Below the pieces are notes generated by a model, which saw nothing but the letters and a program-made list of their open reading frames with translations, was not told the origin of the DNA and did not search any database. 64,000 bases of DNA, taken from assembly GCA_004193555.1 (NCBI GenBank), contig RPGP01000040.1, positions 625,127 through 689,126 on the forward strand, read 5' to 3'. Below, in pieces: positions 31,689-59,748 of the stretch. The DNA is from Desulfobacteraceae bacterium Eth-SRB1 (lineage in GTDB: Bacteria; Desulfobacterota; Desulfobacteria; Desulfobacterales; ETH-SRB1). Every line of letters starts with the position of its first letter. Position 1 is the stretch's first letter. A program made the translations under genes and the position numbers.

Positions 31689-31733
31689 GGAAAGCAAGGT
31701 TGCCGTCTAATCACGCCGACATGGTCGGCTCTA
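31689..31733. repeat. Degenerate REP-like unit after the Ig-like lipoprotein
   Basis: AAAGCAAGGTTGCCGT followed by TCACGCCGACATGGTCGGCT. The GCCGAC-ATG-GTCGGC hairpin is intact but the outer ends are lost. It marks the left limit of the family in this window. Confidence 0.65.
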
Positions 31734-33640: not shown

Positions 33641-33703
33641 ATTTTGGAGCAAGGCATCCGTCATGCCGTACTCTACGCCGACATGGTCGGCTCGCTCCAT
33701 ATT
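33641..33703. repeat. REP-like unit (head plus tail)
   Basis: Head TTTTGGAGCAAGGCATCC followed by gtcATGCCGT, then spacer, then tail ACGCCGACATGGTCGGC and TCGCTCCATA. The tail hairpin GCCGAC-ATG-GTCGGC is perfect, and the ends GGAGC / GCTCC are complementary. Confidence 0.85.
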
Positions 33704-37497: not shown

Positions 37498-37560
37498 TAT
37501 TTTGGAGCAAGGCAACCATGATGCCGTACAGACGCAAACATGGTTTGCTCGCTCCATATT
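37498..37560. repeat. REP-like unit with GCAAAC tail variant
   Basis: Head TTTTGGAGCAAGGCAACC with ATGATGCCGT, then tail GACGCAAACATGGTTTGC and TCGCTCCATA. The second hairpin is GCAAAC-ATG-GTTTGC, a compensated variant of GCCGAC-ATG-GTCGGC. Confidence 0.85.
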
Positions 37561-38238: not shown

Positions 38239-38282
38239 TGCTCGTTACTCGTCACTGGTTACTGGTTTCTCGTTGCTCGTTT

Positions 38283-38408
38283 ATTTTGGATCAAGGCATC
38301 CATGATGCCGTCCACGTTACGCAAACATGGTTTGCTTGATCCATAGTTTTTGGATCAAGGCAACCATGTTACCGTATTATCACGCCGACATGGTCGGCTC
38401 GCTCCATA
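38283..38408. repeat. Two tandem REP-like units, GGATC outer-stem variant
   Basis: Unit 1 (38283-38345) begins TTTTGGATCAAGGCATCC and ends GCTTGATCCATAG, so the outer stem GGATCAAG / CTTGATCC is fully compensated relative to GGAGCAAG / CTTGCTCC. Its tail hairpin is GCAAAC-ATG-GTTTGC. Unit 2 (38346-38408) has a GGATC head but a GCTCC tail, giving a mismatched outer stem, and ACCG for GCCG in the head. Confidence 0.85.
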
Positions 38409-38456
38409 GTTGCGCATCTTCCCACTTTCCCACTTTCTCACTTTCTCACTTTCTCC

Positions 38457-38861: not shown

Positions 38862-39203
38862 GGCACATTTCCTCCTCTACAAAACCTAAGGTTATTACTT
38901 ATCATCGGCTCTTGCTCGTTTCCATGCACCAGCATAGAACACCATATGGTATGCATTCCCACGCTGGAGCATGGGAACGAGGATTCCTGTCTCCTGGCAG
39001 GCAGGTACATCCGGATACTCCATAGTTTGGATCAAGGCATCCATGATGCCGTTTAATACGCCGACATGGTCGGCTTGCTCCATATTTTGGATCAAGGCAT
39101 CCATGATGCCGTCTTGTTTTACGCGAATCCGCCTCAGGCAGACTCCGACCTCCGACCTCCGACCTCCGACCTCCGACCACTCGACCTCCGACCACTCGAC
39201 CAA
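38862..39203. repeat. Gap with palindrome, REP-like units and heptamer tract
   Basis: A degenerate copy of the large palindrome of 58288-58348 lies at about 38914-38982 (the right arm CCCACGCTGGAGCATGGGAA is intact). REP-like pieces with the GGATC outer stem lie at 39013-39024, 39025-39084 and 39086-39112. A tandem CCGACCT tract (about 39143-39200) ends at the stop of the 2421-residue gene. No gene is seen. Confidence 0.75.
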
Positions 39204-42200
39204 TTAGTATGACAGCGTATCCACAGTTTTCATCTTAATCCACATGCCATAACCAGGGCCGAAATACTCCAGATCATTAAAGGTACCGAGCATGGGGTCA
39301 TAGGTATGGGCGCCACTATCATACGACCTGATGACTGCGTAGTTGCCGCTTATCGCTGACAGCACGTCGCCCATGTCATTCACCTCGGTAAATTGTGTAG
39401 CATCGGGCGGAAATGCCACATCAAGAGGTTTCGTCCCTGTGTACTGGATATCGGGATGCCAGTATCCCGCAAGGTTCCATCCTGTATGAAGATCAAGCGT
39501 ATCCGCAGGCAAGGCCCTGAGACCGTTTAGCTCCAGATTGCCTGCTGTGTTCATCTTGATCCAATACCCGTAACCTCCGGCCACATATTTGAGGTCGCTA
39601 TAAGATGGGATAACCGGATCAAACGTGTGGGCGCCAATGCTGTCAAAGCTGCGCACAACATCGTAAAGGCCGGCTATAGACGAGAATACGTCTGCAATGC
39701 TGGTTACTTGTGTATAGACTGTGCCTGGCAGCATGGGCTCAGCAGGAGGCCCGTCAGCATACCCCGAAACTCCGTCAGCATAGTAACATGTCTTTACACT
39801 AAAACTGATAAGGTTCCATCCCTCATGCAGAGGAATCGTTTGCATACCTGAACCGTTTAAGTTCACTTCGAATCTATCTTTATCAAAGGTCCATGACGGG
39901 GGAGAACTGCCGGTAATCACAGTGGTTGTTGTATCCAGTTCTACCCCGGCGCCGGCATCCCAGATACGGAATGTTAATTCGTTACCCGGTTCGGCCCCTT
40001 CATCAACTTCTGTTGTACCGCTATCATCCCTGTAAACATGCATAAAGCCATATTGACCTGCAGTGTTTACAGTAAACTGTCCACAAACCACCCCGTCAGG
40101 GTCAAACACGCCGACTTCATCACCTGCTTCCGCAGGAACGCCATCGACGTTTACATTGCCATAGAAATCCATGGATTCGCTCGTGGCGCCGGCAATTTGG
40201 AAGTGTTTGGTCAATATCGGTATTGTGCCGTCTGTATATTCATCAAGATTGGCAACCCCGTCTCCGTCATTGTCCTGAGCGGCATCACCGGCATACAATG
40301 GGTCGAGTCCAAAACCTGTCTCCCATCCATCCGGCATTCCGTCATTATCGCTGTCGCTATTGTTTGGATCCGTTCCCTGTGTATATTCCTGAAGATTAGT
40401 CAGACCGTCACTGTCTGTATCAAGCGATGCATCCGAAGCATCCTCAGAATTCAAACCGTGGTCATCCTCCCACGCATCAGGCATGCCGTCACCATCGGTA
40501 TCTCCCAATAATCCTCCGGAAAGAACAGCATAGGCGGTAAATGAAACAGGAGAGCCTGTTAATCCTGCAGAACTCGCTGAAACAATCGTGGTTCCGGTAT
40601 CAGGTCCAAGCGTGAGCGTATTGGATGCAAAACCAGAATCATCTGTAGGTACAGGATCAGTGTTCGCAAGTATTCCGTCACCTGAAATCACGCTGAAAGT
40701 TACATCTGTCAATGAAACAGGTTCTCCAAGTATATCGGTAATCTTTACAACCAGTGAATTAGGTAGAAGATTGTCGATATTATCCACCTGCTTATCTCCA
40801 GAGACCTTACTCAATTTCATTGCCTCGCCCGCAGCATAGCCTGTTGCGGAAAAGGTAACCGATTCTGTAGTTTCAGCTATGGTTGCAGAAACGATATTAA
40901 TGCCTGCCGTTGTTCCAAGTGTCAGCGTGTTTGATACCAAACCGTTTGCATCACTTATCCCGGTTTCAGATGACAGGCTTCCATCGCTGCTTTCAATTAC
41001 AAAGTTTACCAATATTCCGGATCTGGTTTTACTGTCGGAATCATACACTCTGGCTACAAATGAATCAGGCATAACAGTTCCTGTCTGTCCTACCTGCCCG
41101 TCACCGGAGACCTTCTGAATATAGCTCGGGATATTTTCGTCTTCACCGATCCGCACATCGTCAATTGTCCAGCCTGGCTTTCTGTAGTTGATAGTTTCGT
41201 CCATCGTATCACTCATCACAAACTTTATCCGCACGTTGGGCAATCCGGCCCAGGTACTTAAATCTATCTGCTTATACGTCCATGTTGTCTGATCCCCCTT
41301 GAACGATGCCAGTTGCGTCCATGTACCGGGCTGACCATTATATGTGGAGAGGTAAACACAAGCATAGTCGTAATCCTTCTGAGAATAATCGCAACCGCCG
41401 TCGGATGAAGAATCCGGGCAGTTTCTGGTATCGTACTTGTGCCAGAAGGTAAGCTGCGGGTGAACGGCGCCACTCAGAGCTATGCTGTTGGCCATGATAA
41501 GCTCGGAACTTACAAGTGAACCGTAATCCCCTTCAGGGCTGTCCGTAAAGGCATAGATGCCGCTGATGCCGCTGTACCCATCCGGCGCCAGCGCCCATGA
41601 TGAACTGTGCCAGTTCGCTAAGGTGGCTGCTCCACCTTCCATGTTGTCAGTAAATGGATAGGAAAATGGCGATCCCTCGGTCTCTGCTATCATGATGTCA
41701 TCAATATACCACCCATCAGACTGAACGCCGTTGGTGTCCGATGTCAACCTGAAACGGATTTCCACCTGTTTCCCTGCGTATCCTGACAGATCAATTCTCT
41801 CTTTAAACCATGCAGCAGAAGTGCCGGTTATAAAATAAAGCCTCTTCCACGTGGAGCTGCCAACCTCCCTCACCTCCACATATCCATGGTCCGAGTTGCT
41901 CTCCAGGGCATATTTCTGCCAGAAGGTGAGTACAGGCATCACTGCCGCCCCAAGATCTACGGTTATGTTAAGCGAACTATCCTCTCCCCCGGAATATGAT
42001 CCCTGTGGTGAGTCTGTCCATACTGTGGATGTTTCCCCTGTGTGAGATTCTGCCGACCCAATAGTAATCAATCCCCATGGTGAATCATAAAACCACGGGA
42101 CGCTCCCGCTCTCCATGTCATCAAAGAAAGGATAGAGAGCCAGAATCGATTCTTCTTTGATTTGTAACCCGTCCATATACCAGCCGTCCTGCTGGTTCGT

Positions 42201-45200
42201 ATCGTTGGAAGTCAGGCGGAATCTAAACCCGAGGTTGGCGTTGCCTGCATAGGCGGTTAAACTGATACGTTCATGGTTCCATGTACTTTCAGCGCCAGTA
42301 ATTGACCGGATTGTGGTCCACGTCTGACCATTATCGGTAGAGACTTCGATCTTTATAAAGTCGATGCCATCCTCAAGAGAATAGCGGTGCCAGAATGTCA
42401 AAACAGGGGCGGTTGTTCCGCCAAGGTCAATAAACGTTGCAAGGCTCGTATTGGCATTGGCCGGATAGTTGGCCCCAGGCGAATCTGTCCAGCAATATGT
42501 TCCTTCATAGGGCATTGTGTCCGTCAGGCCCCACGGCGTTCCATAAGACCATTGAGACGTACCGCTCTCGCTCTCACCGTCTTCAGAAAAAGGGAAGCTG
42601 TTGCTCGGAATAGAATAAGTTGCCTGCACCTCATTGCCTCCCATGGAAACATTACTGTCCGTGTCAACAACCCACATCTTGTAGTAATAGGTCCCAGGCT
42701 GAATCATTGCCACTGCATCAATATAAATTAATTCAGTCTTTGTGGTGATGCTTGCAACAAGGGTATCGCTGCGGGTGACACCTGAAGCTGAAGAGCGGTA
42801 AAGCTCATAACGGGCAAAGTCTGAATCAGTATTTTCACCCCACTCGATGGAAACGCTGTTCTGAGAAGAGGCAGTAATAGATAGAGTTACATCAACAGGG
42901 GCCTCTTCAATAGCAACATCATCAATTGTCCAGCCTGGCTTTCTGTAGTTGATAGTTTCGTCCATCGTATCACTCATCACAAACTTTATCCGCACGTTGG
43001 GCAATCCGGCCCAGGTACTTAAATCTATCTGCTTATACGTCCATGTTGTCTGATCCCCCTTGAACGATGCCAGTTGCGTCCATGTACCGGGCTGACCATT
43101 ATATGTGGAGAGGTAAACACAAGCATAGTCGTAATCCTTCTGAGAATAATCGCAACCGCCGTCGGATGAAGAATCCGGGCAGTTTCTGGTATCGTACTTG
43201 TGCCAGAAGGTAAGCTGCGGGTGAACGGCGCCACTCAGAGCTATGCTGTTGGCCATGATAAGCTCGGAACTTACAAGTGAACCGTAATCCCCTTCAGGGC
43301 TGTCCGTAAAGGCATAGATGCCGCTGATGCCGCTGTACCCATCCGGCGCCAGCGCCCATGATGAACTGTGCCAGTTCGCTAAGGTGGCTGCTCCACCTTC
43401 CATGTCGTCAGTAAATGGATAGGTAAGAACCGCTGTCTCTGTCTCGTCTATGTTAATGTCGTCTATGTACCATCCATCGGACTGTGTGCCATTGGTGTCG
43501 GCTGCCAGCCTGAAACGGAGTTCTATTTGTTTGCCTGCATAATTGGACAAATCTACCCTTTCTTCAAACCATGCAGCGGTCCCTGTTGCAAAGTAGAGCC
43601 TTTCCCACGTGGCACTGCCAACCTCCCGAACTTCTATATATGCATGGTCAGAGTTGCTTTCCAGTGCATATTTCTGCCAGAAGGTAAGCACAGGCATCAC
43701 TGCCGACCCAAGGTCTATGGTCATGCTAAGAAAGGTATCAGCTCCCGCTGAATAGGAACCTTCAGGAGAATCTGTCCATACAATTGATGCTGCATCTGAG
43801 TGAGAATCATAAGCTGCCAAAGTCATTAAACCCCATGTAGAATGATAAAACCACGGAATGATCCCGCTCTCCATGTCATCAAAGAAAGGATATGATGCAT
43901 GAATAGACTCTTCTTTGATTTGCAGGCCATCCATATACCAGCCATCCTGCTGGTTAGCGCTATCTGAGGTCAGGCGAAATCTGAGGCCAAAATTTGCGTT
44001 GCCGCTATAGGCAGCAAGGTTCATCCGCTCCTGGTTCCATGCGGTCTCTATGCCTGTAAATGTCCTCAGCCCGGTCCAGGTCTGACCATCGTCAGCAGAT
44101 ACCTCCAAATATACAAAATCTGTCCCCTCTTCTAAAAAGTAGCGGTGCCAGAATGTCAAAACAGGGGCGGTTGTTCCGCTGAGGTCAATAAACGTTGCAA
44201 GACTCGTATTGGCATTGGCTGGATAGTTGGCCCCAGGCGAATCTGTCCAGCAATATGTTCCTTCATAGGGCGTTGTGTCCGTCAGGCCCCACGGCGTTCC
44301 ATAAGACCATTGAGACGTACCGCTCTCGCTCTCACCGTCTTCAGAAAAAGGGAAGCTGTTGCTCGGAATAGAATAAGTTGCCTGCACCTCATTGCCTCCC
44401 ATGGAAACATTACTGTCCGTGTCAACAACCCACATCTTGTAGTAATAGGTCCCAGGCTGAATCATTGCCACTGCATCAATATAAATTAATTCAGTCTTTG
44501 TGGTGATGCTTGCAACAAGGGTATCGCTGCGGGTGACACCTGAAGCTGAAGAGCGGTAAAGCTCATAACGGGCAAAGTCTGAATCAGTATTTTCACCCCA
44601 CTCGATGGAAACGCTGTTCTGAGAAGAGGCAGTAATAGATAGAGTTACATCAACAGGGGCCTCTTCAATAGCAACATCATCGATTGTCCAGCCTGGCTTT
44701 CTGTAGTTGATAGTTTCGTCCATCGTATCAATCATTACGAATTTTATCCGCACATTGGGCAATCCGGCCCACGTGCTGAGGTCTATGATCTTCTTTTCCC
44801 ATGTGGTCTGACTCCCTTTGAACGCTGCTAATTCTTTCCACGTTCCAGGCTGACCATTATATGTGGAGAGGTAAACACGAGCGTAGTCGTAATCCTTCTG
44901 AGAATAATCGCAACCGCCGTCGGATGAAGAATCCGGGCAATTTCTGGTATCGTACTTGTGCCAGAACGTAAGCTGGGGATGAAGTGCGCCATTCAAATCA
45001 ATGCTGTTGGCCATGACAAGCTCGGAGCTTACTAATGAACCATAATCCCCTTCAGGGCTGTCAGTAAAAGCGTAGCTCCCGCTACAGCCATCCACAACTA
45101 AATCCCATGATGAACTGTGCCAGTTGGCGGCTGAGGTTGCCACTCCTTCCATATCGTCTATAAATGGATAGGTAAAAGCAACAGTCCCTGTCTCGTCTAT

Positions 45201-46469
45201 GTTAATGTCATCTATGTACCATCCGTCGGACTGTGTGTCATTGTCTGATACGAGTCTGAAACGGATATCAATTTTTTTCCCAGCATAATTAGACAAGTCC
45301 ATCCGCTCCTCAGTCCATGAAGCGATGGTGCCTGTCACAAAATAGAGTCTCTTCCAGGTAGTGGTTCCATCTTCCCTTACTTCTATATAGCCATAGTCTG
45401 AGTTGTTATCAAACGTACACTTGTGCCAGAAGGTAAGCACAGGCATATTCGCTGCTCCAAGATCGACTGTTATCTGCAAAGAAGTGTCGGCTCCCGCCGC
45501 GTAAGAACCTCCGGGGGAATCTGTCCATGAATATATGCCAGAATGCTTATGCGCATCGGTAAGACCCCACGGCGAGCCTGCTGTCCAACCGCCAACAGAT
45601 CCTTCCAGATCGTCAAAAAAGGGATAGTGAAACTCTGCGATACTCGTTATGCCGGATTCTTCCTTGCTTCCGGCAGCCAGATCATTTGTGTCAAAAACAT
45701 ACACTTTATAGTAGTATGTGGTTTCAGGGGTTAAATCCGTGTCTGTATATAATATAGTGTTTGGATCAGTGATTGTAGTCACAAGAGTACTGGAAGGGCC
45801 GACACCCGCTGTTGTGCTTCGATATATCTTGTAGCCGGCAAAATCAGCGCTTAGATACTCTGTCCATGCAAGATCAAGTGTTGTTGCAGTCGGATTGTCA
45901 ACCGCGAGTTCGGCAACCGCGTTAGGCGGTTCGGATATGGCGACGTCATCAATGTACCAGCCGTCCCATACAATAGTCTTATCGGTTTCAAGCCTGAAGC
46001 GGATTAGAACATTTGCCTGACCTGCATAATCAGATATATCAATCTGCTCCCGTGTCCAGTCGGAAATGCCGGTATATGAAGCTAGTTCATGCCAGGTTGA
46101 GCCTCCATCAGTAGAAAGCTCCAGATACCCAAAATCGAAATCTGTTTCTATTTGGCGTTTATGCCAGAAGACCAGTTGAGGATTAGTTACAGTTGCAGAT
46201 GAAAGATCGAGAGATGCGGCAAGTATCATGGAAATGTCAGCTTCATTGGCATAATAGGCGCCCGGGCTGTCTGTCCAGGCGGTGGAAGCGCTGTGATACT
46301 CTGATGTGGTCGTGGACCATGGACTTTCACCTGTCCACTTAGCCGTGCCTTCCATATCATCGCTGAAATAGGCTCCTGCCCATGATACCGAACTCATCCC
46401 CAGACAAAACATGACTCCAATGAGAGATAAAATGACTGTGGTCTTCAGGTAATGCGCTGCCTTTTTCAT
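39204..46469 (-). CDS. Giant modular surface protein (nine MAM-like modules, FnIII, Big-1, TSP3-like, GDEV)
   Basis: A 2421-residue exported protein with a signal peptide (to about residue 31, VSWAGAYF). Nine MAM/choice-of-anchor-J-like modules follow, each with FxDDMEG, (W/F)TDSP, LTFWHK and GW(Y/T)IDD(I/V). Three FnIII domains lie between modules. Then come two Big-1-like domains (SKVSGDKQVDN), a Ca-binding TSP3-like stretch (DTDGDGMPDAWEDDHGL, DSDNDGMPDGWE), one GDEVGVFDPDGVVCG...DEGAEPG domain and two GWNL...YGYWIKM segments. It is probably a calcium-stabilised adhesin or matrix protein. It has no CFI box. The middle carries a tandem duplication of about 1.76 kb (separate entry). Confidence 0.85.
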   Translation of the reverse strand: MKKAAHYLKTTVILSLIGVMFCLGMSSVSWAGAYFSDDMEGTAKWTGESPWSTTTSEYHSASTAWTDSPGAYYANEADISMILAASLDLSSATVTNPQLVFWHKRQIETDFDFGYLELSTDGGSTWHELASYTGISDWTREQIDISDYAGQANVLIRFRLETDKTIVWDGWYIDDVAISEPPNAVAELAVDNPTATTLDLAWTEYLSADFAGYKIYRSTTAGVGPSSTLVTTITDPNTILYTDTDLTPETTYYYKVYVFDTNDLAAGSKEESGITSIAEFHYPFFDDLEGSVGGWTAGSPWGLTDAHKHSGIYSWTDSPGGSYAAGADTSLQITVDLGAANMPVLTFWHKCTFDNNSDYGYIEVREDGTTTWKRLYFVTGTIASWTEERMDLSNYAGKKIDIRFRLVSDNDTQSDGWYIDDINIDETGTVAFTYPFIDDMEGVATSAANWHSSSWDLVVDGCSGSYAFTDSPEGDYGSLVSSELVMANSIDLNGALHPQLTFWHKYDTRNCPDSSSDGGCDYSQKDYDYARVYLSTYNGQPGTWKELAAFKGSQTTWEKKIIDLSTWAGLPNVRIKFVMIDTMDETINYRKPGWTIDDVAIEEAPVDVTLSITASSQNSVSIEWGENTDSDFARYELYRSSASGVTRSDTLVASITTKTELIYIDAVAMIQPGTYYYKMWVVDTDSNVSMGGNEVQATYSIPSNSFPFSEDGESESGTSQWSYGTPWGLTDTTPYEGTYCWTDSPGANYPANANTSLATFIDLSGTTAPVLTFWHRYFLEEGTDFVYLEVSADDGQTWTGLRTFTGIETAWNQERMNLAAYSGNANFGLRFRLTSDSANQQDGWYMDGLQIKEESIHASYPFFDDMESGIIPWFYHSTWGLMTLAAYDSHSDAASIVWTDSPEGSYSAGADTFLSMTIDLGSAVMPVLTFWQKYALESNSDHAYIEVREVGSATWERLYFATGTAAWFEERVDLSNYAGKQIELRFRLAADTNGTQSDGWYIDDINIDETETAVLTYPFTDDMEGGAATLANWHSSSWALAPDGYSGISGIYAFTDSPEGDYGSLVSSELIMANSIALSGAVHPQLTFWHKYDTRNCPDSSSDGGCDYSQKDYDYACVYLSTYNGQPGTWTQLASFKGDQTTWTYKQIDLSTWAGLPNVRIKFVMSDTMDETINYRKPGWTIDDVAIEEAPVDVTLSITASSQNSVSIEWGENTDSDFARYELYRSSASGVTRSDTLVASITTKTELIYIDAVAMIQPGTYYYKMWVVDTDSNVSMGGNEVQATYSIPSNSFPFSEDGESESGTSQWSYGTPWGLTDTMPYEGTYCWTDSPGANYPANANTSLATFIDLGGTTAPVLTFWHRYSLEDGIDFIKIEVSTDNGQTWTTIRSITGAESTWNHERISLTAYAGNANLGFRFRLTSNDTNQQDGWYMDGLQIKEESILALYPFFDDMESGSVPWFYDSPWGLITIGSAESHTGETSTVWTDSPQGSYSGGEDSSLNITVDLGAAVMPVLTFWQKYALESNSDHGYVEVREVGSSTWKRLYFITGTSAAWFKERIDLSGYAGKQVEIRFRLTSDTNGVQSDGWYIDDIMIAETEGSPFSYPFTDNMEGGAATLANWHSSSWALAPDGYSGISGIYAFTDSPEGDYGSLVSSELIMANSIALSGAVHPQLTFWHKYDTRNCPDSSSDGGCDYSQKDYDYACVYLSTYNGQPGTWTQLASFKGDQTTWTYKQIDLSTWAGLPNVRIKFVMSDTMDETINYRKPGWTIDDVRIGEDENIPSYIQKVSGDGQVGQTGTVMPDSFVARVYDSDSKTRSGILVNFVIESSDGSLSSETGISDANGLVSNTLTLGTTAGINIVSATIAETTESVTFSATGYAAGEAMKLSKVSGDKQVDNIDNLLPNSLVVKITDILGEPVSLTDVTFSVISGDGILANTDPVPTDDSGFASNTLTLGPDTGTTIVSASSAGLTGSPVSFTAYAVLSGGLLGDTDGDGMPDAWEDDHGLNSEDASDASLDTDSDGLTNLQEYTQGTDPNNSDSDNDGMPDGWETGFGLDPLYAGDAAQDNDGDGVANLDEYTDGTIPILTKHFQIAGATSESMDFYGNVNVDGVPAEAGDEVGVFDPDGVVCGQFTVNTAGQYGFMHVYRDDSGTTEVDEGAEPGNELTFRIWDAGAGVELDTTTTVITGSSPPSWTFDKDRFEVNLNGSGMQTIPLHEGWNLISFSVKTCYYADGVSGYADGPPAEPMLPGTVYTQVTSIADVFSSIAGLYDVVRSFDSIGAHTFDPVIPSYSDLKYVAGGYGYWIKMNTAGNLELNGLRALPADTLDLHTGWNLAGYWHPDIQYTGTKPLDVAFPPDATQFTEVNDMGDVLSAISGNYAVIRSYDSGAHTYDPMLGTFNDLEYFGPGYGMWIKMKTVDTLSY
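41161..44743. repeat. Large near-identical tandem duplication inside the 2421-residue gene
   Basis: Positions 41161-41667 match 42922-43428 (offset 1761 bp) almost base for base, with one difference noticed near the end. Positions 42387-42985 match 44145-44743 (offset about 1758 bp). Together they show that a unit of about 1.76 kb, two MAM-like modules plus an FnIII, was duplicated in tandem and part of it has stayed nearly identical while intervening parts diverged. Confidence 0.85.
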
Positions 46470-46967
46470 GTTCTTGTCCCCCCTTTTTTAGCCACGGATA
46501 AACGCAGATAAAACCATATCTACGAAGAACCACTCACTTTTTTGAGTTTGTAAATTTCTGGTTGAATAATACCTAAATTGAGCGATTTTTTATAGGTAAT
46601 AAGCACTTAACCACTCGACTAGTAACTTCTCAAAAACTTGGGGTATTTGTTGCCCTCCGTTGTTCCGGCAACATGGTCGGCTCGCTCCATAGTTTGGAGC
46701 AAGGCAACCATGTTGCCGTTGGCTTTACGCAAACACGGTTTGCTTGCTCCATAGTACGCCGACATGGTCGGCTTGCTCCATATTATTTGGAGCAAGGCAA
46801 CCGTGTTGCCGTAAAGGGTTTGGGTGACAAAAACACAACATCTACCCAGACTTTTTGAGAAGTTACCTCGACCACTCGACGATGTCTGGAAATTAACAAA
46901 AAAAACAGCTTGTATCCGCGTTTATCTGCGTTTATCTGCGGCCAATTTGTCTTTTTCTTTTGAGCTA
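46470..46967. mobile_element. MITE-like element carrying REP units, within a repeat-filled gap
   Basis: The element spans 46622-46866. GTAACTTCTCAAAAA at 46622-46636 is the exact complement of TTTTTGAGAAGTTAC at 46852-46866, and the pairing extends imperfectly to about 24 bp. Inside lie REP tails (46665-46692, 46755-46784), a full unit (46693-46754) and a head (46787-46813). The phrase ACCACTCGAC flanks both ends and may be a target duplication, though it is itself repetitive. Outside the element, GCAGATAAACGC-type phrases (46491-46515 and 46914-46940) are in opposite orientation. There is no gene. A second copy is at 58509-58768. Confidence 0.75.
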
Positions 46968-49900
46968 TTATGGCGACCCTGGAGGTGAAGGAAGCTCCGA
47001 TATACCGGGCAACGCTACACCTGCGCCGGTGCCGGAGAAGTTGTTGCTGCTGTATTGTCCGGCCGCGGCACCGCTCATATTGATATCATGATCGGCTACC
47101 GTTCCTGAACCGGTAACGCCGGCAGCCCACTGGTTTGTATCCCATTTTTGCACATCAAAATTCGCATTTATGTTACCGCTTGTTCCAATCAGCGGCACAC
47201 TCGTACCTACAGAAGGATCAGAAGTATAACTTCCACTTACGTCTCCTGTTGCCCAGATTCTGGGCGCAGCGCCGTTAGAATAGGCAAAAAAGGTTGTATC
47301 ATTCATGTTGACAGTCATGCCATCAGCGCTGCCTGTGAGATTTGTCCTTCCCACCTCAATGCAGGGGATATTGAGTTGCGCGAGCTTATCTTTCCCCAAA
47401 TCGGTGTCTGTCATGGCAAGGAAAGTTCTTGTGTCTATACCGGCCCACATGGCGGCTGTCTGCCAGGTAGCGTTGAGCGGGTTGAAAGTGCCTTTGAGGT
47501 CTGCTCCGCACACACCTGTCACCACCTCATCCAGATTGACCCAGGCTCCGACCCCCTTGCCGGAGATCATGTTGTCAGACCACGATCCTGCTGCATCAGA
47601 AGAACTTAAAAGATAACACTTTCTTTTTGTTGTTCCGTCATCAAAAGAAAATGGAAGATACCAGTGATCGGATGTGTTTCCGTCAAATTCAGTATAGGTA
47701 CCACCATAAATCGTTGATGTTACGGAGAAATACTGGTTATAAAACTGGCCGCCTATCTGCAGCGTGCCGGTTGTCTTGACGGCAGCGCTTTTTTTGCGTC
47801 CGTATCTCCGGTGTATATCACCACCAAACAGCCCAGTTGAAGCATTAAAGAACTCTCCATGAAATTCTGCAGAACCTTCTAAGTAAGTTTGCCTTATAAG
47901 ACCTCCGCTATCAGGATGAAAATCAGATGCATTAAAACCGGTAGCCTGTACTATTTCAACAGGATAGATTCCTCCTGTTCCATCCCACATCTCGGCATCA
48001 GGATAGATATCTCCGTCAAAACTTCCCTTGAGAAAGCCCATATTCCCTGACTTGTCGAGATAAAGCGCTAACATCCCGCCTTCCAGTGTATTGTTTGCAA
48101 GGGTACGCCCACCCATGTAGCCGTAATATGCTCCGTTTTGAGAATTGTCATCCTGGTTCCAGATGGTGCAACTGCCATCATAGGGATTGTAGCTCTTAAT
48201 GCCCATGGAAAAAACCGACGGCAGCACCTCGTCATACCATGCATCATATTCGCCGATGAAACGGATATTGGCTTTGTCGCCGGCAGAGGCTGTCCAGAGA
48301 TCATCAAGACCGCCCATGAAACCGTCAAGCCAGCCTCTTCCTCTTAAGTTGTAGGTGGGATTTTCGTTTCGTAAAACTTCCCCAGTCACAGATGCCCCAT
48401 CCTTCAAGTATTCCTCATACAAGCCCAAATCAACACTCCAGGTGCCCTCACTGTAAGAGAGTGCTCCATTGTCATCAACCCATGTCTCGGTAGTTCCATC
48501 CGCGTTATAGTTAATATGGGTGGTTTTAGTGCCATCATACTCAACAGACCATCCTGCTTCAACTCCGGTCTCGTAGCTGTAGTGATAGTGAGAACCCTCG
48601 GGAGTTCCGTCATCCCACTGTCCTTCGTATTGTTCCATCATCCTTGTCAGATCAGCACCGTCAAGAATTCCGTTGAACTTGAGTTTCTCGCTGCTCTCCC
48701 AGTAGCCGGAGGAAACTGCCTGCCAGCCGCCGTTGGTACTTTCAACATCATAAGCGTAAGTGCCTGTAATTTCTCCGGCAAGCTGCCCATAGTCGGCAAG
48801 AGTAAGAAAGTTACCAGTGTAGCTGCTTGCAAACGCACCACTTCCACTGTTTTCAAATGTTCCGTTTATCTCATCTGTCAGCCATATCCCTGTATCAGTA
48901 TATCCACTGGCTCTTGCCGACCAGGTAGTTGATGAATCGGGATTATAGAAACAATTGTTATAACCGAACATAAGCCGGTATACTCCCAGGCCTTCACCAC
49001 TGAGGGAAAGTGTCTCCCCCCATCCTAATTCGCTGAAGATTTCAGAGTTAGAGTCGCCAAAATCTCCGGAGAGCCACCCGGCAATCGTTCCTCTGTCCAG
49101 ATTTGTGCTGAGATCTGCTGGTAAGATGCCGGTGCTTTGGATTGTGGTTGTCACCGGAGAAACAGTCCCTGAAGCATTCCACATTTCCAGGTCAGGATAA
49201 ACAGTTCCTGAAAATCCTCCTTTGAGAATACCTGCATTCTGCGAAGGATCGACATAAACAGCGTATATATCGCCATTCATGTTATCAGTAATACCGCTTA
49301 AATATCCGGCATAAGCTCCTGTAGTGATATCACTGCTTTGAATACTGAATCCGAATATGGATGGTTTGTTATAATCTCCGTCCGTGGGATTATACATGCC
49401 CATCAGACTTATGCCCGCAGGATTCGAATCAGTGGCGCTCCACAGATCACCGGTTCCACCCATAATGCCGGAAATTGCCCCGCTATTTGCAAGGCAGAAG
49501 GAAGACCTTTCTTCATACCAGTGGCGTTCCCAGGTACCTCCGTCATCTGGAGGCTCGGAAAAGTAGGCAGAATTAGAATCATAGGCACCGACAGTCCACG
49601 ATCCTCTGGTAAAAGTCAAAAAATCATCCTCTATTATGCCGACACGCGTGCCATCGGGAAGATAGATATCTCCAGATTCACTATCGCTCTCATAATAGTC
49701 TTCCCAATTTTCGCCATACAGAAGAACGTCCTCATCGGAGACAAAATAGTCGTAATCATAACGTGCGTCATAATATGGATCCCCTGTTGTTGTAACCCTT
49801 CTTCCAAAACTGCCAGCATAAAGAGTGCCGCCAACGGTCCTGTAAGTGTCTCCGCCAAATGAGCTGCTGAAGGTCAGAGGATCGCCGGTGAATGTGCCGA

Positions 49901-52900
49901 GGCTTTCACCGATCCATGTGCCTGACTCCCCTTCTTCCACTGCATTGATACCGTAAAATGATCCTCCAATGGAACCGGTATGTGTGCTGGTGAGGAATGT
50001 TCCAACAAGAGATCCTGTTATCTCTCCTTCTCCTGTCCAATCGCCACCTGCATCGGCAAGCCAGTAACCATAACTGTCAGCCACATATTCAAGTTCCATG
50101 TTTCCACCCACCCTGGCCGACCAGGTGGTATCACCGGCAGGTTTGCCATTATATACATTTTCATATCCGAGCTTCAAATCATAGATTCCGCACAAAGGGG
50201 CGGCTTCTGTGCTATAGTCAACAATATAAAAAATATTCATCAACCACTCATACTCATCTTCACATCCCCCATTACCCAGGATAAAACCAGCGCTTTCATC
50301 AAAATTTCCGGATAAGCGGGAACTAATATAGCCATAACCTGCATCAATGGAATCGTAATCAGAGTAGATTTGCGTACCAGAAGGGGTCAGAGTGCCTTCA
50401 GCCATCCACATCTCAAGCTCTGGATAGTAGAGCCCGGAAACATCGCCTTTGACATAACCGGCGGTAACAGATTCGTCCTCCAAATCCATATTTACCATAT
50501 TTAAATAAAGAGCCACAGCCGTCCCTTCCATGGCGCCGTTTTCCCAGATGCCGCCGGTAAAACCCATGAATGCCTCTGTTTCTCCTTCGTCTGAAATACC
50601 AAAGGCATAAATCTCCGAATTCCACAGATAGTGATCTTTTCCTTCAAGCCCATCTTCATGATAATATTCACCCATGGCTAAAAACTCGGCAGGGCCGTCC
50701 CACGGCGCGCTGAGACCTCCGATAATGCCATATTCCTCACCTGCCCAGTCCATATTGCCGTTATTATTATAGTAAAGACTGGCGCCCTCCCAATACCCGC
50801 TGAAGGCAAGTGGTTCGCCTTCATATACGCCCAGAGATGTTGCGGCCCAGTGTCCTGAGTCATCATAAAAACCAATGATATCTCCTCTAATCTCACCCAT
50901 CTTAACTGAGGTCAGAAATTTTCCGTTGCTCAGGCTGCCGGAAATCTTATTTTCGTCCCATGCACCGGCAGTTATATCGGCAAGCCAGTAACCGTTATCT
51001 AACAAATAATCATCATCACCTTCATAAGTTCCAAAATCGGCGCTGCCACCTGTCTTTGCAGACCACGTAGTTGCTCCATTCGGGTTATCATAGCCTTCAT
51101 CATAACCATTTAAGACAATATCGTATATCCCCCAATTCCATCCATCTATGTATCTGGTCCACCCGTAGCAGAAGCTGCCCTCGCAGTGTTCCGCCCCGGA
51201 TATATAGCCATTTCCGCTAAAATCACCTGAAAGATTGGCGTGTATGCTCGTATCCGTGCGAACCTCATCGCAGAAGTCAGCAGGGTTAATTCCGCTATCA
51301 GGAGACATCATGGTCGCTGCCCAGATGCCATCCGCATCGAGCATAGCTTTATAATTTTTATAGAGTTCAGGATAGTATGTTCCCGTGAGGTTTCCAGTTA
51401 TATAACCGGCATTTCCACCAGGGTCCATATAGAGACTGACAATTCTTCCATCGATTAGACCGTCATTCAAGACACCACCTATAAAGCCATTAAATGCACC
51501 GCCATCATAAGTTGTGCGATTTTCATCAATGGCATTAAAGCTGTATATATTACTGCTCCAGAGAAGTGGATATGGGTCGTCAACACCAGAGCAGGATCCA
51601 CCCATATAAGCCACATTAACAGTCTGAGTCTGCCAGGCGATCCCATCCCACATCCATGGCGATGTTATGCCTCCGGCAAGAGCTTCAACATCATCACATG
51701 TTTCAAAATAATAGTCTCCATCATCTTCACGACCGGCATAAAGACCCCAGTCCGGGCCATCATTCAAATCAGAAGCGCTTTCAATTAACCCGCTGAAGGC
51801 GAGCTCCTGCTCGCTGAATGTGCCTGATGCCAGGGCTTCCCATGCGCCTGTAGAATATGTATCGTAACTTCCAAAAATCTTGCCTGTTATTAAACCAAGC
51901 GCTGTATTTGTAAGATATCTTCCTTCAATTGCATTTCCTTCTATAGTATGATCAGGGTTCCAGAAACCCTCCTCTATATGGGCAATCCAGTAATCGTTCC
52001 AATTATTTTTCCAGTAACCACCTCCACAGACTATTGAAAAGGTCGAGGTGGAATCGGGATTATCATAGTATCCGCCAAGTTCCAGTTTGTATATTCCCCA
52101 GGGTTCATCTTTATTTGTTTGGGGATTTGTAAGCCAGGTGGTTTCTGCTGCCTCAAGACTATCGCCTGCATTAATAAAACCATATCCATTAAATGTTCCA
52201 TAAATATCACCGTCAGGGTTTCCGGAATTCGTATATGATGAGAGGTCGGAGCCGACATCGTAATCAGCGGTTAATGATTTTTTATCAGCGGTTAATGTTC
52301 CATTTGCCTCCCACATTTCAATTTCAGGATAATGCGGGCCTGTAAATAATCCTGAAAGAATGCCGGCATAACCTGAAGAATCTATGTAAAGTCCATTTAT
52401 CATGCCTTTTACTGTGTTATCATGCGTTACGCCACCAATCCAGCCGCTCCACTGGTTTTCAGTTTCTACATAATCGTTTCCGGATATATTCGTCCACCAG
52501 GTAGTGTAAGCACTCGGATATGTTTTTCCTATGAGCCTGGTTTCAACAGGTATTCCGGGCAACTCAAAGGGGGAGTCAATTACGCCAATGCCTCCTTCTA
52601 TTGAATAATCATAGCATTCCATGCCATCATAGTCAGAACGATAGTAATAATAAGCTCCGTCAATATCTCCGCCAAAGGCCAAGGGAGTTTCTGTTAATGT
52701 GCCAATACCCGAATCCGTTGCTTGCCATGTCCCATCATTAAATGTAGCGTCGACAGCGCCTGTACCTGTGCCCAATGTCGTATGTGTTAAATAAGTAAAG
52801 TTTGATGCACCCTCTGTGCCGTTGATTGTTTCAATCCAGTAACCATTCGTATTAGCGGAACTGTCCAAGGTCTGACCCCCGGCAGTCATCTCCCAGGATG

Positions 52901-54455
52901 AAGAATGCGCGCCGGTATATGTGCCCTCTAATTCTAATATCCACCCACCCCAGTTCTGGTTCGCAACAGCCGAAATATCGCCGTCCGCAGATCCTTCTAT
53001 GGTGCTGCCTGTGCCACTTACAGAACCGGTCAGTGCGTATGGGTGCAGATCAAAGGGCAATGTGTCGGAGGAAGTGTTTCCCGCCTCGTCCGTGGCCGTG
53101 TATTCAAATATGTGCTCGCCCTCCCCCAATCCGCTAAAACTTGTAGTAGTCACTGTTGCATCGTCAAGGTTGCAGGAATAGGTCACAGTTTCGTTGCTTG
53201 AGAGGTCAAGGTTTACTGCGGTTAAATTATCTGTTTCAGGAGATGCTGCAGATGCTATCGTTATAACAGGGGGTGTTGTATCCACTTCTGTCTCAGGAGG
53301 AATATAAGGTTCCAAATTCTCTGTCGTTGGATCAATGTCACCTGTTTCTATGACCGGGCTATCTGCTATACCACCACCAGCCGTTCCTAAATCAACATCA
53401 GCAGAAGACCCGGAAATAAATCCTGTGTCAGTTTCAACAGAAAGTTCAGTAGCTGGTTCCGGTGCGGTTGAAACTGATTCCGGTGCTGCTTCGGAAGGAA
53501 CAGCCTGTTCCTCTGCCGCAGGCAAAGGTGCTTCTCCTGCTTCTTCCGGTCCAGGAGCGGCTTCTTCGGCAGGAGCCTCCTCAACAGGCGCTTCTTCTGC
53601 TGTCTCTATTTCTTCGGCCGGAGCCTCCTCAGCGACCTCTCCTTCCTCAACAGGCGCCTCTTCTTCAACGGCCGCCTCTTCCTCAGCAGGCGCTTCTTCC
53701 TCAGCGACCTCTTCCTCCTCAACAGCCTCCTCTTCTTCAGCCTCAGCCTCCTCTTCTACCGCTTCAACCTTCTCTTCTTCCTCTTCCTCGGCCTCCTCCT
53801 CTTCTTCCGAAGGAGCTGTATCCTCTGTATGCTGCTGAAGTTCAATATCTGTGGCCGGCTTTATAACAGGGGGCTGGTCAGGACTTATAACTATCATGGC
53901 CTGGCCTGCTTTGATGGTTTTCACCACATCGGGCCTGTTTACACTATAACCATAACCGCTTCCTTTTTTGAATATTGCGCCGCTTGTATTCCTCTGATGA
54001 AAGACAAAAAAGTTGGTGCCTCTAACCCCGCAAACAGCCGTGGGGGTTTGAACCTCATAGAGATTTTGCGTTTTACGCCCAAAAGTCTTTGCTGCTGTTT
54101 TCTTTACAATATTCTGGATCTTTCCTCTAAAAAGCTTCAGAATCCCTCTGGTCTGTTTTTTCTCTACCATATATTCATTAATCTTTACCCGGCTTTTCTG
54201 GGCAAAACGGAGGATGCTGCCATCTATAAGAGCAATTTCTGCTTTTGAGTTGCTCTTGGTCCGTATAATATCGCCCACATTTACATCATCTCCCTTGTGG
54301 GCCGGCACAGCCTTCATGCCGGGAGCGGTGATATCCACCCTCCCCTTAACATAAGTAAATGTGCCGACAGTCTCTGACAGAGCAACCACAGGAAACATAA
54401 TGAGAACGGTCAGAGAAACCATAAAAAATATTATAAGAGAGATTATGCGTTTCAT
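46968..54455 (-). CDS. Giant FecR-domain repeat protein
   Basis: A 2495-residue exported protein. A signal peptide precedes a FecR domain (about 28-185; VNVGDIIRTKSNSKAEIALIDGSILRF, TPTAVCGVRGTNFF). A Glu/Ala/Pro-rich linker (about 215-345) and an Ig-like segment (about 390-470) follow. Then come roughly five long repeats with shared phrases: W(G)IY.L.LG, TTWSA..GG, G.ITG...G.Y, EPLAFSG, GNAGY..G..SG.YYPE.EMW.A.GTL. The C-terminus is Gly-rich with no obvious anchor. FecR domains elsewhere contact peptidoglycan or outer-membrane partners. The repeats are not recognised. AGGAGG stands before the ATG. A TPR/beta-barrel gene lies upstream beyond the REP transposase. Confidence 0.82.
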   Translation of the reverse strand: MKRIISLIIFFMVSLTVLIMFPVVALSETVGTFTYVKGRVDITAPGMKAVPAHKGDDVNVGDIIRTKSNSKAEIALIDGSILRFAQKSRVKINEYMVEKKQTRGILKLFRGKIQNIVKKTAAKTFGRKTQNLYEVQTPTAVCGVRGTNFFVFHQRNTSGAIFKKGSGYGYSVNRPDVVKTIKAGQAMIVISPDQPPVIKPATDIELQQHTEDTAPSEEEEEAEEEEEEKVEAVEEEAEAEEEEAVEEEEVAEEEAPAEEEAAVEEEAPVEEGEVAEEAPAEEIETAEEAPVEEAPAEEAAPGPEEAGEAPLPAAEEQAVPSEAAPESVSTAPEPATELSVETDTGFISGSSADVDLGTAGGGIADSPVIETGDIDPTTENLEPYIPPETEVDTTPPVITIASAASPETDNLTAVNLDLSSNETVTYSCNLDDATVTTTSFSGLGEGEHIFEYTATDEAGNTSSDTLPFDLHPYALTGSVSGTGSTIEGSADGDISAVANQNWGGWILELEGTYTGAHSSSWEMTAGGQTLDSSANTNGYWIETINGTEGASNFTYLTHTTLGTGTGAVDATFNDGTWQATDSGIGTLTETPLAFGGDIDGAYYYYRSDYDGMECYDYSIEGGIGVIDSPFELPGIPVETRLIGKTYPSAYTTWWTNISGNDYVETENQWSGWIGGVTHDNTVKGMINGLYIDSSGYAGILSGLFTGPHYPEIEMWEANGTLTADKKSLTADYDVGSDLSSYTNSGNPDGDIYGTFNGYGFINAGDSLEAAETTWLTNPQTNKDEPWGIYKLELGGYYDNPDSTSTFSIVCGGGYWKNNWNDYWIAHIEEGFWNPDHTIEGNAIEGRYLTNTALGLITGKIFGSYDTYSTGAWEALASGTFSEQELAFSGLIESASDLNDGPDWGLYAGREDDGDYYFETCDDVEALAGGITSPWMWDGIAWQTQTVNVAYMGGSCSGVDDPYPLLWSSNIYSFNAIDENRTTYDGGAFNGFIGGVLNDGLIDGRIVSLYMDPGGNAGYITGNLTGTYYPELYKNYKAMLDADGIWAATMMSPDSGINPADFCDEVRTDTSIHANLSGDFSGNGYISGAEHCEGSFCYGWTRYIDGWNWGIYDIVLNGYDEGYDNPNGATTWSAKTGGSADFGTYEGDDDYLLDNGYWLADITAGAWDENKISGSLSNGKFLTSVKMGEIRGDIIGFYDDSGHWAATSLGVYEGEPLAFSGYWEGASLYYNNNGNMDWAGEEYGIIGGLSAPWDGPAEFLAMGEYYHEDGLEGKDHYLWNSEIYAFGISDEGETEAFMGFTGGIWENGAMEGTAVALYLNMVNMDLEDESVTAGYVKGDVSGLYYPELEMWMAEGTLTPSGTQIYSDYDSIDAGYGYISSRLSGNFDESAGFILGNGGCEDEYEWLMNIFYIVDYSTEAAPLCGIYDLKLGYENVYNGKPAGDTTWSARVGGNMELEYVADSYGYWLADAGGDWTGEGEITGSLVGTFLTSTHTGSIGGSFYGINAVEEGESGTWIGESLGTFTGDPLTFSSSFGGDTYRTVGGTLYAGSFGRRVTTTGDPYYDARYDYDYFVSDEDVLLYGENWEDYYESDSESGDIYLPDGTRVGIIEDDFLTFTRGSWTVGAYDSNSAYFSEPPDDGGTWERHWYEERSSFCLANSGAISGIMGGTGDLWSATDSNPAGISLMGMYNPTDGDYNKPSIFGFSIQSSDITTGAYAGYLSGITDNMNGDIYAVYVDPSQNAGILKGGFSGTVYPDLEMWNASGTVSPVTTTIQSTGILPADLSTNLDRGTIAGWLSGDFGDSNSEIFSELGWGETLSLSGEGLGVYRLMFGYNNCFYNPDSSTTWSARASGYTDTGIWLTDEINGTFENSGSGAFASSYTGNFLTLADYGQLAGEITGTYAYDVESTNGGWQAVSSGYWESSEKLKFNGILDGADLTRMMEQYEGQWDDGTPEGSHYHYSYETGVEAGWSVEYDGTKTTHINYNADGTTETWVDDNGALSYSEGTWSVDLGLYEEYLKDGASVTGEVLRNENPTYNLRGRGWLDGFMGGLDDLWTASAGDKANIRFIGEYDAWYDEVLPSVFSMGIKSYNPYDGSCTIWNQDDNSQNGAYYGYMGGRTLANNTLEGGMLALYLDKSGNMGFLKGSFDGDIYPDAEMWDGTGGIYPVEIVQATGFNASDFHPDSGGLIRQTYLEGSAEFHGEFFNASTGLFGGDIHRRYGRKKSAAVKTTGTLQIGGQFYNQYFSVTSTIYGGTYTEFDGNTSDHWYLPFSFDDGTTKRKCYLLSSSDAAGSWSDNMISGKGVGAWVNLDEVVTGVCGADLKGTFNPLNATWQTAAMWAGIDTRTFLAMTDTDLGKDKLAQLNIPCIEVGRTNLTGSADGMTVNMNDTTFFAYSNGAAPRIWATGDVSGSYTSDPSVGTSVPLIGTSGNINANFDVQKWDTNQWAAGVTGSGTVADHDINMSGAAAGQYSSNNFSGTGAGVALPGISELPSPPGSP

Positions 54456-54472
54456 TTTAATCCTCCTTTATT

Positions 54473-54667
54473 TCTGGAGCAAGGCATCCGTGATGCCGTA
54501 TTTTGGAGCAAGGCATCCGTGTTGCCGTTGCATTTACGCAAACACGGTTTGCTTGCTCCATAGTACGCCGACATGGTCGGCTCGCTCCATAGTTTTTGGA
54601 GCAAGGCATCCGTGATGCCGTATCACACCGACATGGTCGGTTCGCTCCATATACACATGTTGCCGTA
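54473..54667. repeat. REP-like cluster downstream of the transposase gene
   Basis: Heads lie at 54473-54500, 54502-54527 and 54594-54621. Tails lie at 54536-54563 (GCAAACACGGTTTGC type), 54564-54591 (GCCGACATGGTCGGC) and 54627-54651 (ACCGACATGGTCGGT, again compensated). A partial head lies at about 54655-54667. The cluster fills the gap between the FecR gene start and the transposase stop. Confidence 0.88.
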
Positions 54668-54674
54668 CAGCAAT

Positions 54675-55217
54675 TTAATGATCATTTTTTATATTTATCT
54701 TGTCAAACGGATATGCTTCCCTCAATCGTTCAAGATATTCTTTTTGCTCTTTATATCTATGAAAATAGCTTCCCCATTGATAATCTTGTGCTTTCTTTAC
54801 GTAACCATGCTTTACAGGATTGAAGTAAATGTAATTTAGCCTTGCATAATAAGATCTTTCGTAAGTGATACAGGTGTCCCAATAATTGTCGAATATTTTC
54901 GGAAAGGCATTATATTGTGGATATTCTTTTTTTATAAACATTGCTGTAAATTTGTGATACTCTGATACAAATTTTGAAATATCAGCTCCTTTTTGGGGCG
55001 AGTTGACCATAATGTGGTAATGATTATCCAAAATCACCCAATCCTCAAGTGTCCAGTCATAATTCCGGTATGCGATCTTGAGAGACGATAGCAGTTTTTG
55101 TTTTGAGTTATCATCAAGTATTTTTATCTTTTTATATGTTGACGCTGTAATAAAATATTTCGCAGAGTCTTTGTGCAAATGAGGTGGAGTATGAACATAT
55201 GTCTTGTATTTTTCCAT
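54675..55217 (-). CDS. REP-associated tyrosine transposase (Y1_Tnp family)
   Basis: A 180-residue protein of the IS200/REP-associated (RAYT/TnpA_REP) family. The HUH motif is in WVILDNHYHIMVN (about residues 62-74), and YFITASTYKK near the start is the family phrase. The Tyr in ERSYYARLNYIYFNPVKHGYV (about residues 120-140) fits the catalytic Tyr helix. RAYTs are single-copy domesticated transposases that nick and move REP/BIME hairpins. It is flanked on both sides within 10 bases by the REP-like clusters at 54473-54667 and 55225-55362, the expected arrangement. It lacks IS200-type ends. Confidence 0.9.
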   Translation of the reverse strand: MEKYKTYVHTPPHLHKDSAKYFITASTYKKIKILDDNSKQKLLSSLKIAYRNYDWTLEDWVILDNHYHIMVNSPQKGADISKFVSEYHKFTAMFIKKEYPQYNAFPKIFDNYWDTCITYERSYYARLNYIYFNPVKHGYVKKAQDYQWGSYFHRYKEQKEYLERLREAYPFDKINIKNDH

Positions 55218-55224
55218 TTGTTTT

Positions 55225-55362
55225 TACGCCGACATGGTCGGCTCGCTCCATATTATTTGGATCGAGGCATCCATGTTGCTGTATTATCACGCCGACATGG
55301 TCGGCTGGCTCCATGTTTTTTGGGCAAGGCTGGCTCCATATTTTTGGAGGTCGGCTCGCTAC
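55225..55362. repeat. REP-like cluster upstream of the transposase gene
   Basis: Tail at 55225-55253 (ACGCCGACATGGTCGGC), head at 55256-55282 (TTTGGATCGAGGCATCC), tail at 55288-55316, then degenerate pieces to 55362 (GGGCAAGGCTGGCTCC, GGAGGTCGGCTCGCT). It lies directly before the start codon of the transposase and may contain its promoter or leader. Confidence 0.85.
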
Positions 55363-56962: not shown

Positions 56963-57312
56963 GCCCCCTAAGGCGGCAAAGCCGCAATCAGAATTCAGAG
57001 ATCAGAAGTCAGAAGTCAGAGATCAGAGATCAGCCGTAAAGATAAAAAATTATTCAGCTTTCATTCTGGATTCTGACTTCGTTCACTTTATTCGTGGGAA
57101 AAACTTTTAATTAGTATATTTGCATAGTTAATCAGGAAAATCAAGCAATATCCGAACCCACATAAGAGGCTGCCCGAGAATGAGAAATTTTTTGCAAGGT
57201 CAAGGAAGACGAAGATTTTAACCGCAGGAATACATTGAGTATTTTGAGGATTAAAATCTGAGTCTGACACAGAGATTGCGAAAAATAGCCATTCTCGAAC
57301 AGCCTCCTGGGC
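56963..57312. mobile_element. Gap with a 141-bp inverted-repeat element
   Basis: GAGGCTGCCCGAGAATG at 57166-57182 and the complement-like run ending ACAGCCTC at 57306 form imperfect terminal inverted repeats (about 28 bp, with several mismatches). Inside is a palindrome, GATTTTAA...TTAAAATC, around CAGGAATACATTGAGTATT. The core also occurs at about 32076-32112. The rest of the gap holds a tandem AGATCAGAAGTCAG tract (56998-57035) and GCGGCaaaGCCGC. No gene is seen. It looks like a non-autonomous element. Confidence 0.6.
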
Positions 57313-58014: not shown

Positions 58015-58287
58015 GTATAATTATGTTATAATTTGCTCAAGTAAAAATCAATCGGTATATGGTGCATTCGTAAAAAAGCGAATTCACCAGGTGTTAGGTG
58101 TTAGGTGTTAGGTTGATAGGCTGAAGACTGTTAGGGAAAAGCGCATTTTAAAGCCATGTTTGACGCAAGAATCAGACCCGCCCGCCTCGCCTGAGAGAAA
58201 GCTCGAACTGTGTTGACTGTTTTTTTGGGCGAGAGCGATGGCGGGCAGGTATTTCCACCAAAATACGGTTATCGTACTCTTTTTCTC

Positions 58288-58348
58288 GTTCCCATGCTCC
58301 AGCGTGGGAATGCATACCATATGGGTTCCCACGCTGGAGCATGGGAAC
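58288..58348. repeat. Perfect 23-bp inverted repeat
   Basis: The arm 58288-58310 (GTTCCCATGCTCCAGCGTGG and GAA) is the exact complement of 58326-58348, with a 15-base loop. The right arm recurs with a decayed left arm at 38914-38982. It is a dispersed palindrome with no coding content. Confidence 0.85.
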
Positions 58349-58508
58349 CAGGCAGTCTGCCAAAGGCCTCTGACAGACTCGAAATAACAGCTTTGGTTAG
58401 TTTTCGTTCAGGCACTAAATAGGCTGAAGGCTGTTAGAAAAAAGCGAATTCACCGGGTGTTAAGTGTTAGGTTAAAGTAATTATCTGTTTTATCAGTCTC
58501 TTAACACT

Positions 58509-58768
58509 GTAACTTCTCAAAAACTTGGGGTATTTGTTACCCTCCGTTGTTCCAGCAACATGGTTGCCGTATTATCACGCCGACATGGTCGGCTCGCTCC
58601 ATATTATTTGGAGCAAGGCAACCGCGATGCCGTATTTTGGAGCAAGGCAACAGTGTTGCCGTCTTTGGAGCAAGGCAACCATGTTGCTGTCTTTGGAGCA
58701 AGGCAACCATGTTGCCGTAAAGGGTTTGGGTGACAAAACACAACATCTACCCAGACTTTTTGAGTTAC
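58509..58768. mobile_element. Second MITE-like element with internal REP array
   Basis: The left end GTAACTTCTCAAAAACTTGG (58509-58528) is identical to the copy at 46622. The right end TACCCAGACTTTTTGAGTTAC (58748-58768, written in two parts TACCCAGAC and TTTTTGAGTTAC) lacks three bases of the first copy. Both copies share the phrases CCTCCGTTGTTCC on the left and AAAGGGTTTGGGTGACAAAA on the right. Inside are a partial head (58553-58570), a tail (58574-58604) and four tandem heads (58607-58718). TTAACACT on the left and TTAACACTT on the right flank it, consistent with a target duplication. Confidence 0.75.
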
Positions 58769-58830
58769 TTAACACTTAACACGTTTCGTAAAATTTTTAC
58801 GAACGCATCAAATTTAAGGAGGTATTTTTA

Positions 58831-59728: not shown

Positions 59729-59748
59729 TTTTGGAGCAAGGCAATTAT
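59729..59748. repeat. Truncated REP-like head
   Basis: TTTTGGAGCAAGGCAA only, ending at ATTATA. It is the most distal member of the family in the window. Confidence 0.6.

Follow-up and report, generated by a model that had tools for sequence, protein, structure and literature searches.

In the genome of Desulfobacteraceae bacterium Eth-SRB1, a gene coding for a REP-associated tyrosine transposase (RAYT) and the short hairpin repeats (REPs) around it very probably constitute a RAYT-REP system (REPtron), in which the RAYT would copy or move inverted pairs of repeats (REPINs), for the most part over short distances. The analysis was centred on a stretch of 64,000 nucleotides from contig RPGP01000040.1 (C40; positions 625,127 to 689,126 of the forward strand), hereafter called the window, whose own numbering is used unless a contig is named. 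Since the same pairing of gene and repeats is found in a relative, the system belongs to a type of mobile-repeat system already known from bacteria, of which it would be a variant in view of a foot that departs from GT[AG]G and of a protein motif set unmatched in PMC6006769.

The RAYT gene and its product

A Y1/HUH transposase gene had been predicted at 54675-55217, and the minus strand indeed carries there an ORF of 180 aa whose product is a RAYT, or TnpA-REP. This protein reaches 91.4 bits against the RAYT model NF047646 of NCBIfam (cut-off 80), whereas it obtains 25.3 bits against the IS200 model NF033573 (cut-off 55), and it contains the Y1 transposase domain PF01797. Both histidines of its HYH motif (H66 and H68), W113, the catalytic Tyr Y129 and N133 are invariant across 12 homologues. 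The single match of a PDB sequence search was the E. coli TnpA-REP structure 4ER8 (E 6.7e-10), in which position 115 aligns with Y129, and the fold predicted from a 12-sequence alignment (pLDDT 85) also has 4ER8 as best match, the IS608 and ISDra2 transposases coming behind. The motif set, namely NHYH, WD and YIYFNP, corresponds exactly to no row of the table in PMC6006769.

On account of the Y1 domain and of the hairpins present on both sides, the gene could be regarded as a recent IS200/IS605 insertion sequence having these hairpins as its ends, which the original prediction had named as a possible refutation. This is almost certainly not so, given that the gene exists as one copy, that its score lies far below the IS200 cut-off and above the RAYT one, and that many hairpins occur without any gene. 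The expectation of a single RAYT gene accompanying the repeats also holds, the remaining Y1 proteins of the genome being at most 25% identical to it.

Anatomy of the repeat unit

Each REP unit of about 28 nt consists of a T-rich lead, the foot GGA[G/T]C[A/G]A, a 6-bp stem, a C[A/G]T loop and a final GT, the hairpin repeat proper being 22 nt long, and tandem units are spaced by 28-31 bp. While the foot and the C-[CRT]-G loop are common to all units, the stem exists in three kinds: H (GGCA[A/T]C), always on the plus strand within the window, and K (GCAAAC) and T (GCCGAC), both always on the minus strand there. Kinds H and T had initially been described as the head and tail of one repeat, a reading that has to be abandoned: each is a REP unit of its own, the two lying on opposite strands with feet facing outward, and together they form an inverted pair, or REPIN.

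The stems have changed in a compensatory manner under this fixed foot and loop. In 45 distinct sequences, 97% of the stem cells are paired versus 79% after shuffling, and both sides have changed at five of the six pairs; the covariation score is 0.453 versus 0.149 and, although such scores are inflated by related sequences, slid controls still fall far below the observed value, the signal being lost when the alignment is slid or shuffled. When folded as single-stranded DNA, each stem kind forms a hairpin. In two H-T pairs, the complementary feet close a structure of two hairpins, with energies below those of 200 out of 200 shuffles, and a longer mixed hairpin is also possible for H-K pairs. 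The conservation of foot and loop together with the variability of the stems suggests that the RAYT reads the foot and the loop.

The foot, being GGAG or GGAT, deviates from the canonical GT[AG]G. As subclasses 2.6 and 3 likewise lack this tetranucleotide, which is the consensus of most REP classes (PMC6006769), the GGA foot marks a variant rather than a non-member.

Copies in the window

Searching the window with the degenerate pattern GGAKCRAGSNNNCCRTGNNNSC, one mismatch being allowed, gave 29 matches versus 0.03 expected in dinucleotide shuffles, and a covariance model, for which 45 distinct copies from this genome (G000), G004 and G056 were used, retrieved 30 full units, all located between 33.6 and 58.7 kb. 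Neither search found any REP unit at 1-31.6 kb, in line with the earlier remark that no repeats were noticed in the first 31 kb. As is characteristic of REPs, these hairpins with conserved pairing are intergenic in the window relative to the larger ORFs, only short spurious read-through ORFs overlapping them.

The RAYT gene is bordered on both sides by REPs of mixed orientation. The array on its stop-codon side (54472-54652) comprises units at 54476(+), 54505(+), 54538(-), 54567(-), 54598(+) and 54627(-), and the one on its start-codon side (55226-55316) has units at 55228(-), 55259(+) and 55291(-), with degraded pieces up to about 55360. The gene had been said to be bracketed within 10 bases; this is correct for the start-codon side (about 10 bp), but beyond the stop codon about 26 bp separate the gene from the nearest REP. 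Further away, two REPINs are found at 33642-33702 (units 33646(+) and 33677(-), two hairpins closed by paired feet) and 37500-37559 (37504(+) and 37534(-)), and arrays at 38284-38409 (38288(+), 38321(-), 38352(+) and 38384(-), with 7-mer and 8-mer simple repeats alongside) and 39025-39112 (39029(+), 39060(-) and 39089(+)). The array at 46665-46812 (46667(-), 46696(+), 46729(-), 46758(-) and 46789(+)) is carried by a MITE-like element with the TIR GTAACTTCTCAAAAA (46622-46866), and the one at 58577-58718 (58579(-), 58610(+), 58639(+), 58667(+) and 58695(+), plus a partial unit at 58552) by a second MITE-like copy (58509-58776; left TIR at 58509, right end damaged). Ten repeat-filled gaps had originally been listed: full units are confirmed at 33.6, 37.5, 38.3, 39.0, 46.7, 54.5, 55.2 and 58.6 kb, whereas 31.7 and 59.7 kb hold truncated remnants only, namely a decayed stem at 31713-31731(-) and a foot with the first stem arm at 59729-59745(+).

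Relatives and RAYT phylogeny

The association of gene and repeats recurs in another genus of the same family. In that genome (G004), an intact RAYT, 53% identical and set in a different gene neighbourhood, is flanked on each side by one REP of the same covariance model, inverted and with the feet (GGAC and GGAT) outward, out of four REP copies in total. In G004 as in the window, the gene lies between inverted REPs, and the Eth-SRB1 genome has one full-length gene per REP type. In G056, a member of a different family within the order, there are 12 REPs and the RAYT is present as a fragment only; two, one and one REPs are present in G003, G015 and G008, where no cognate RAYT was detected; these may be relics or reflect gaps in draft assemblies. 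In 52 of the 58 genomes, including G001 of the same genus, there is no REP match better than E=1e-4, so that the repeats are not equally common in relatives lacking the gene, as the original prediction had required of a refutation. A contig scan for close relatives of the RAYT returned just one distant match. No clean empty site was found in G001, because the FecR-like and TPR genes are kept there but two other ORFs lie between them. The latter point, along with the low copy number, the foot other than GT[AG]G and the RAYT-less REPs of G003, G015 and G008, speaks against the RAYT-REP reading.

In a tree of 21 RAYTs, which is small, comes with a long-branch warning and relies on feet read by eye from the flanks, the 11 members associated with REPs of GGAG-type foot fall on one side of a branch (support 88/92, 95% of bootstraps), and GTAG-foot RAYTs from the same order are placed elsewhere. 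Within the GGAG clade, the REP pattern of G252 matches about 685 times across its genome, and that of the GTAG-type G077 matches 64 times, with many of these matches piled at its RAYT. The literature searched yielded no report of a REP-associated tyrosine transposase in Desulf- taxa, although an earlier notice of GGAG feet is possible.

Genome-wide distribution and clustering

Hundreds of copies had been anticipated, which the genome does not bear out: its draft assembly of 3.34 Mb contains about 45 REP copies at 15 loci, clustered around the gene, whereas the usual REP copy number is above 100 (PMC2817692) and REPs are typically spread genome-wide. Ten loci lie on C40 between 658.8 and 722.3 kb, the RAYT being at 679.8 kb, and five on contig C1, at 532.6, 542, 549, 553 and 1183 kb; 35 of the approximately 45 copies are at most 43 kb from the RAYT and the remainder are in two places on C1. 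The presence of 10 of the 15 loci within 43 kb has a P of about 3e-13 under uniform placement, bearing in mind that this radius was picked after the data had been seen and that the loci are not fully independent, because the 549 and 553 kb copies share a duplicated segment. A similar pile-up near RAYT genes is known from some marine gammaproteobacteria and Thauera, where it was interpreted as spread following acquisition (PMC2817692; PMC8266576), the concentration of REPs near the RAYT having a published precedent in Nunvar 2010 (PMC2817692). No convincing RAYT remnant was found beside the C1 clusters.

As a rival explanation, the RAYT might be a resident nuclease that serves some other purpose, the repeats having been spread by ordinary local recombination, gene conversion and duplication instead of by the RAYT. 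In favour of this, arrays grow as tandem units of 28-31 bp, the 548.8 and 553.1 kb copies on C1 belong to a 96% identical duplicated segment, and the ten C40 arrays near the gene share one polarity, though the surrounding genes face both ways. We nevertheless consider it unlikely: the intergenic flanks of the near-gene arrays look unrelated, simple repeats and MITE aside, compensatory stem changes under a fixed foot and loop are not selected by duplication alone, and the pair of RAYT and REPs recurs in another genus. Replication strand is not supported as the cause of the shared polarity, as GC skew tracks gene strand in the stretches taken and polarity differs by contig. Target availability was dismissed as the cause of the clustering, because (GTTRCTS)2 is found at about 19 places on three contigs and almost none of these places is close to REPs.

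Alternatively, the repeats would be passengers of the MITE with TIR GTAACTTCTCAAAAA, spread by a different transposase, since four REP loci (46.6 and 58.5 kb of the window; 532.6 and 1183.5 kb of C1) are in copies or ends of this element. As a general explanation this is refuted by the 11 of 15 loci without MITE, and it is made very improbable altogether by the MITE relatives at C40:954871 and C40:755622, which hold no REP, and by the G004 RAYT, flanked by REPs and no MITE.

Comparison with known systems

The E. coli TnpA-REP (RayT/YafM, 4ER8; Y and Z REPs, BIMEs) has in common with the present system the HUH-Y1 fold with aligned H, W, Y and N, and the presence of one gene surrounded by inverted REPs that form BIMEs and belong to more than one subfamily. 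It differs by its foot (GTAG versus GGA[G/T]), its motifs (EHMH, WE and YIYINP versus NHYH, WD and YIYFNP), the long bulged stem of its REPs versus a perfect 6-bp stem with a 3-nt loop, and several hundred copies versus about 45 clustered ones. The group 3 REPtron Mb of Marinomonas MWYL1 (PMC8266576) is alike in its short perfect stem a few bases from the tetranucleotide, in the importance of loop identity and in the concentration of REPs near tnpA, but has a GTAG foot, a 5-bp stem, a 4-nt loop and a RAYT from the group of Xanthomonads and Pseudomonads. The GGAGTGC-footed REPs found here around the RAYT homologues from this class (G252, G219, G133, G335 and G117) share the RAYT clade and the GGAG foot, G335 even showing several stems under one foot and loop; in contrast, their foot abuts a longer stem, and the matches are far more numerous in G252. 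Finally, the REPINs of Pseudomonas fluorescens SBW25 (PMC3116915) are also inverted REP pairs, apparently the mobile unit, with clusters adjoining the RAYT. They fold as one long hairpin, whereas the REPs paired here usually have different stems, which is why an H-T pair gives two hairpins connected through the feet.

Proposed mechanism

In the RAYT-REP reading, the RAYT, a Y1 HUH single-strand nuclease, would recognise single-stranded REP hairpins by their 5' foot (GGAG or GGAT) and their C-CRT-G loop, the stem being read mainly as structure. It would nick beside the hairpin through Y129 and rejoin the ends, and REPINs would thereby be copied or moved into other intergenic sites, where adjoining REPs could then expand or contract as 28-31 bp tandem units. 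For the single-strand cleavage, the foot as guide sequence and the copying by the RAYT, the inference is drawn from TnpA-REP proteins already characterised (PMC8266576). Dispersal in this genome would have stayed largely local, as it has in other REPtrons described as young or weakly active, and would have left a few distant copies, of which some lie within an unrelated MITE; the concentration around the gene may then be a snapshot of early or weak dispersal.

More tentatively, the RAYT clade of this bacterial class might rely on a GGAG foot rather than GT[AG]G and recognise REPs through foot and loop alone, with no constraint on the stem sequence, so that several stem types would coexist per RAYT, and REPINs here might preferentially enter (GTTRCTS)n and disperse mainly in the vicinity of the gene. 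The present system extends RAYT-REP systems to a group in which the guide tetranucleotide and the transposase clade differ together, where nature itself offers a way to test if cleavage-site choice depends on the foot, and the free change of stems under a fixed foot and loop gives a natural-sequence view of what SELEX probed earlier.

Simple repeats and other elements

Besides, REPINs are found within 7-bp simple repeats (GTTRCTS)n or next to them at 38241-38281 of the window, at 715.3 and 722.2 kb of C40, at 549 and 553 kb of C1 and at about 6300-6400 of L149, and a REPIN from another genus (G003) has the same flank. Nine of the 15 GTT[AG]CT[CG]GTT sites in 284 kb are at most 60 bp from REP arrays, and (GTTRCTS)2 is nearly one-stranded per contig (26/27 on the minus strand in C1; 10/10 on the plus strand in C29 and C40). 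The window also contains numerous short tandem repeats, whose 7- or 8-bp units differ (9947, 14043, 18056, 33712, 39143, 56986, 58089 and 60389). The MITE-like family, with the TIR GTAACTTCTCAA[A/T]AA, has further members at C1:1183406-1183572 and C40:954871-954975, some copies holding REPs and others none. Other intergenic repeats, at 57175-57297 and 58282-58360, recur dozens of times at 80-100% identity in G001, G003, G004 and G005, and are thus widespread in the family. Lastly, two adjacent very large genes, of 2421 and 2495 aa, occupy 39204-54455; the second has, by inspection, a FecR-like N-terminus, the only part of it that is conserved in the same-genus relative.
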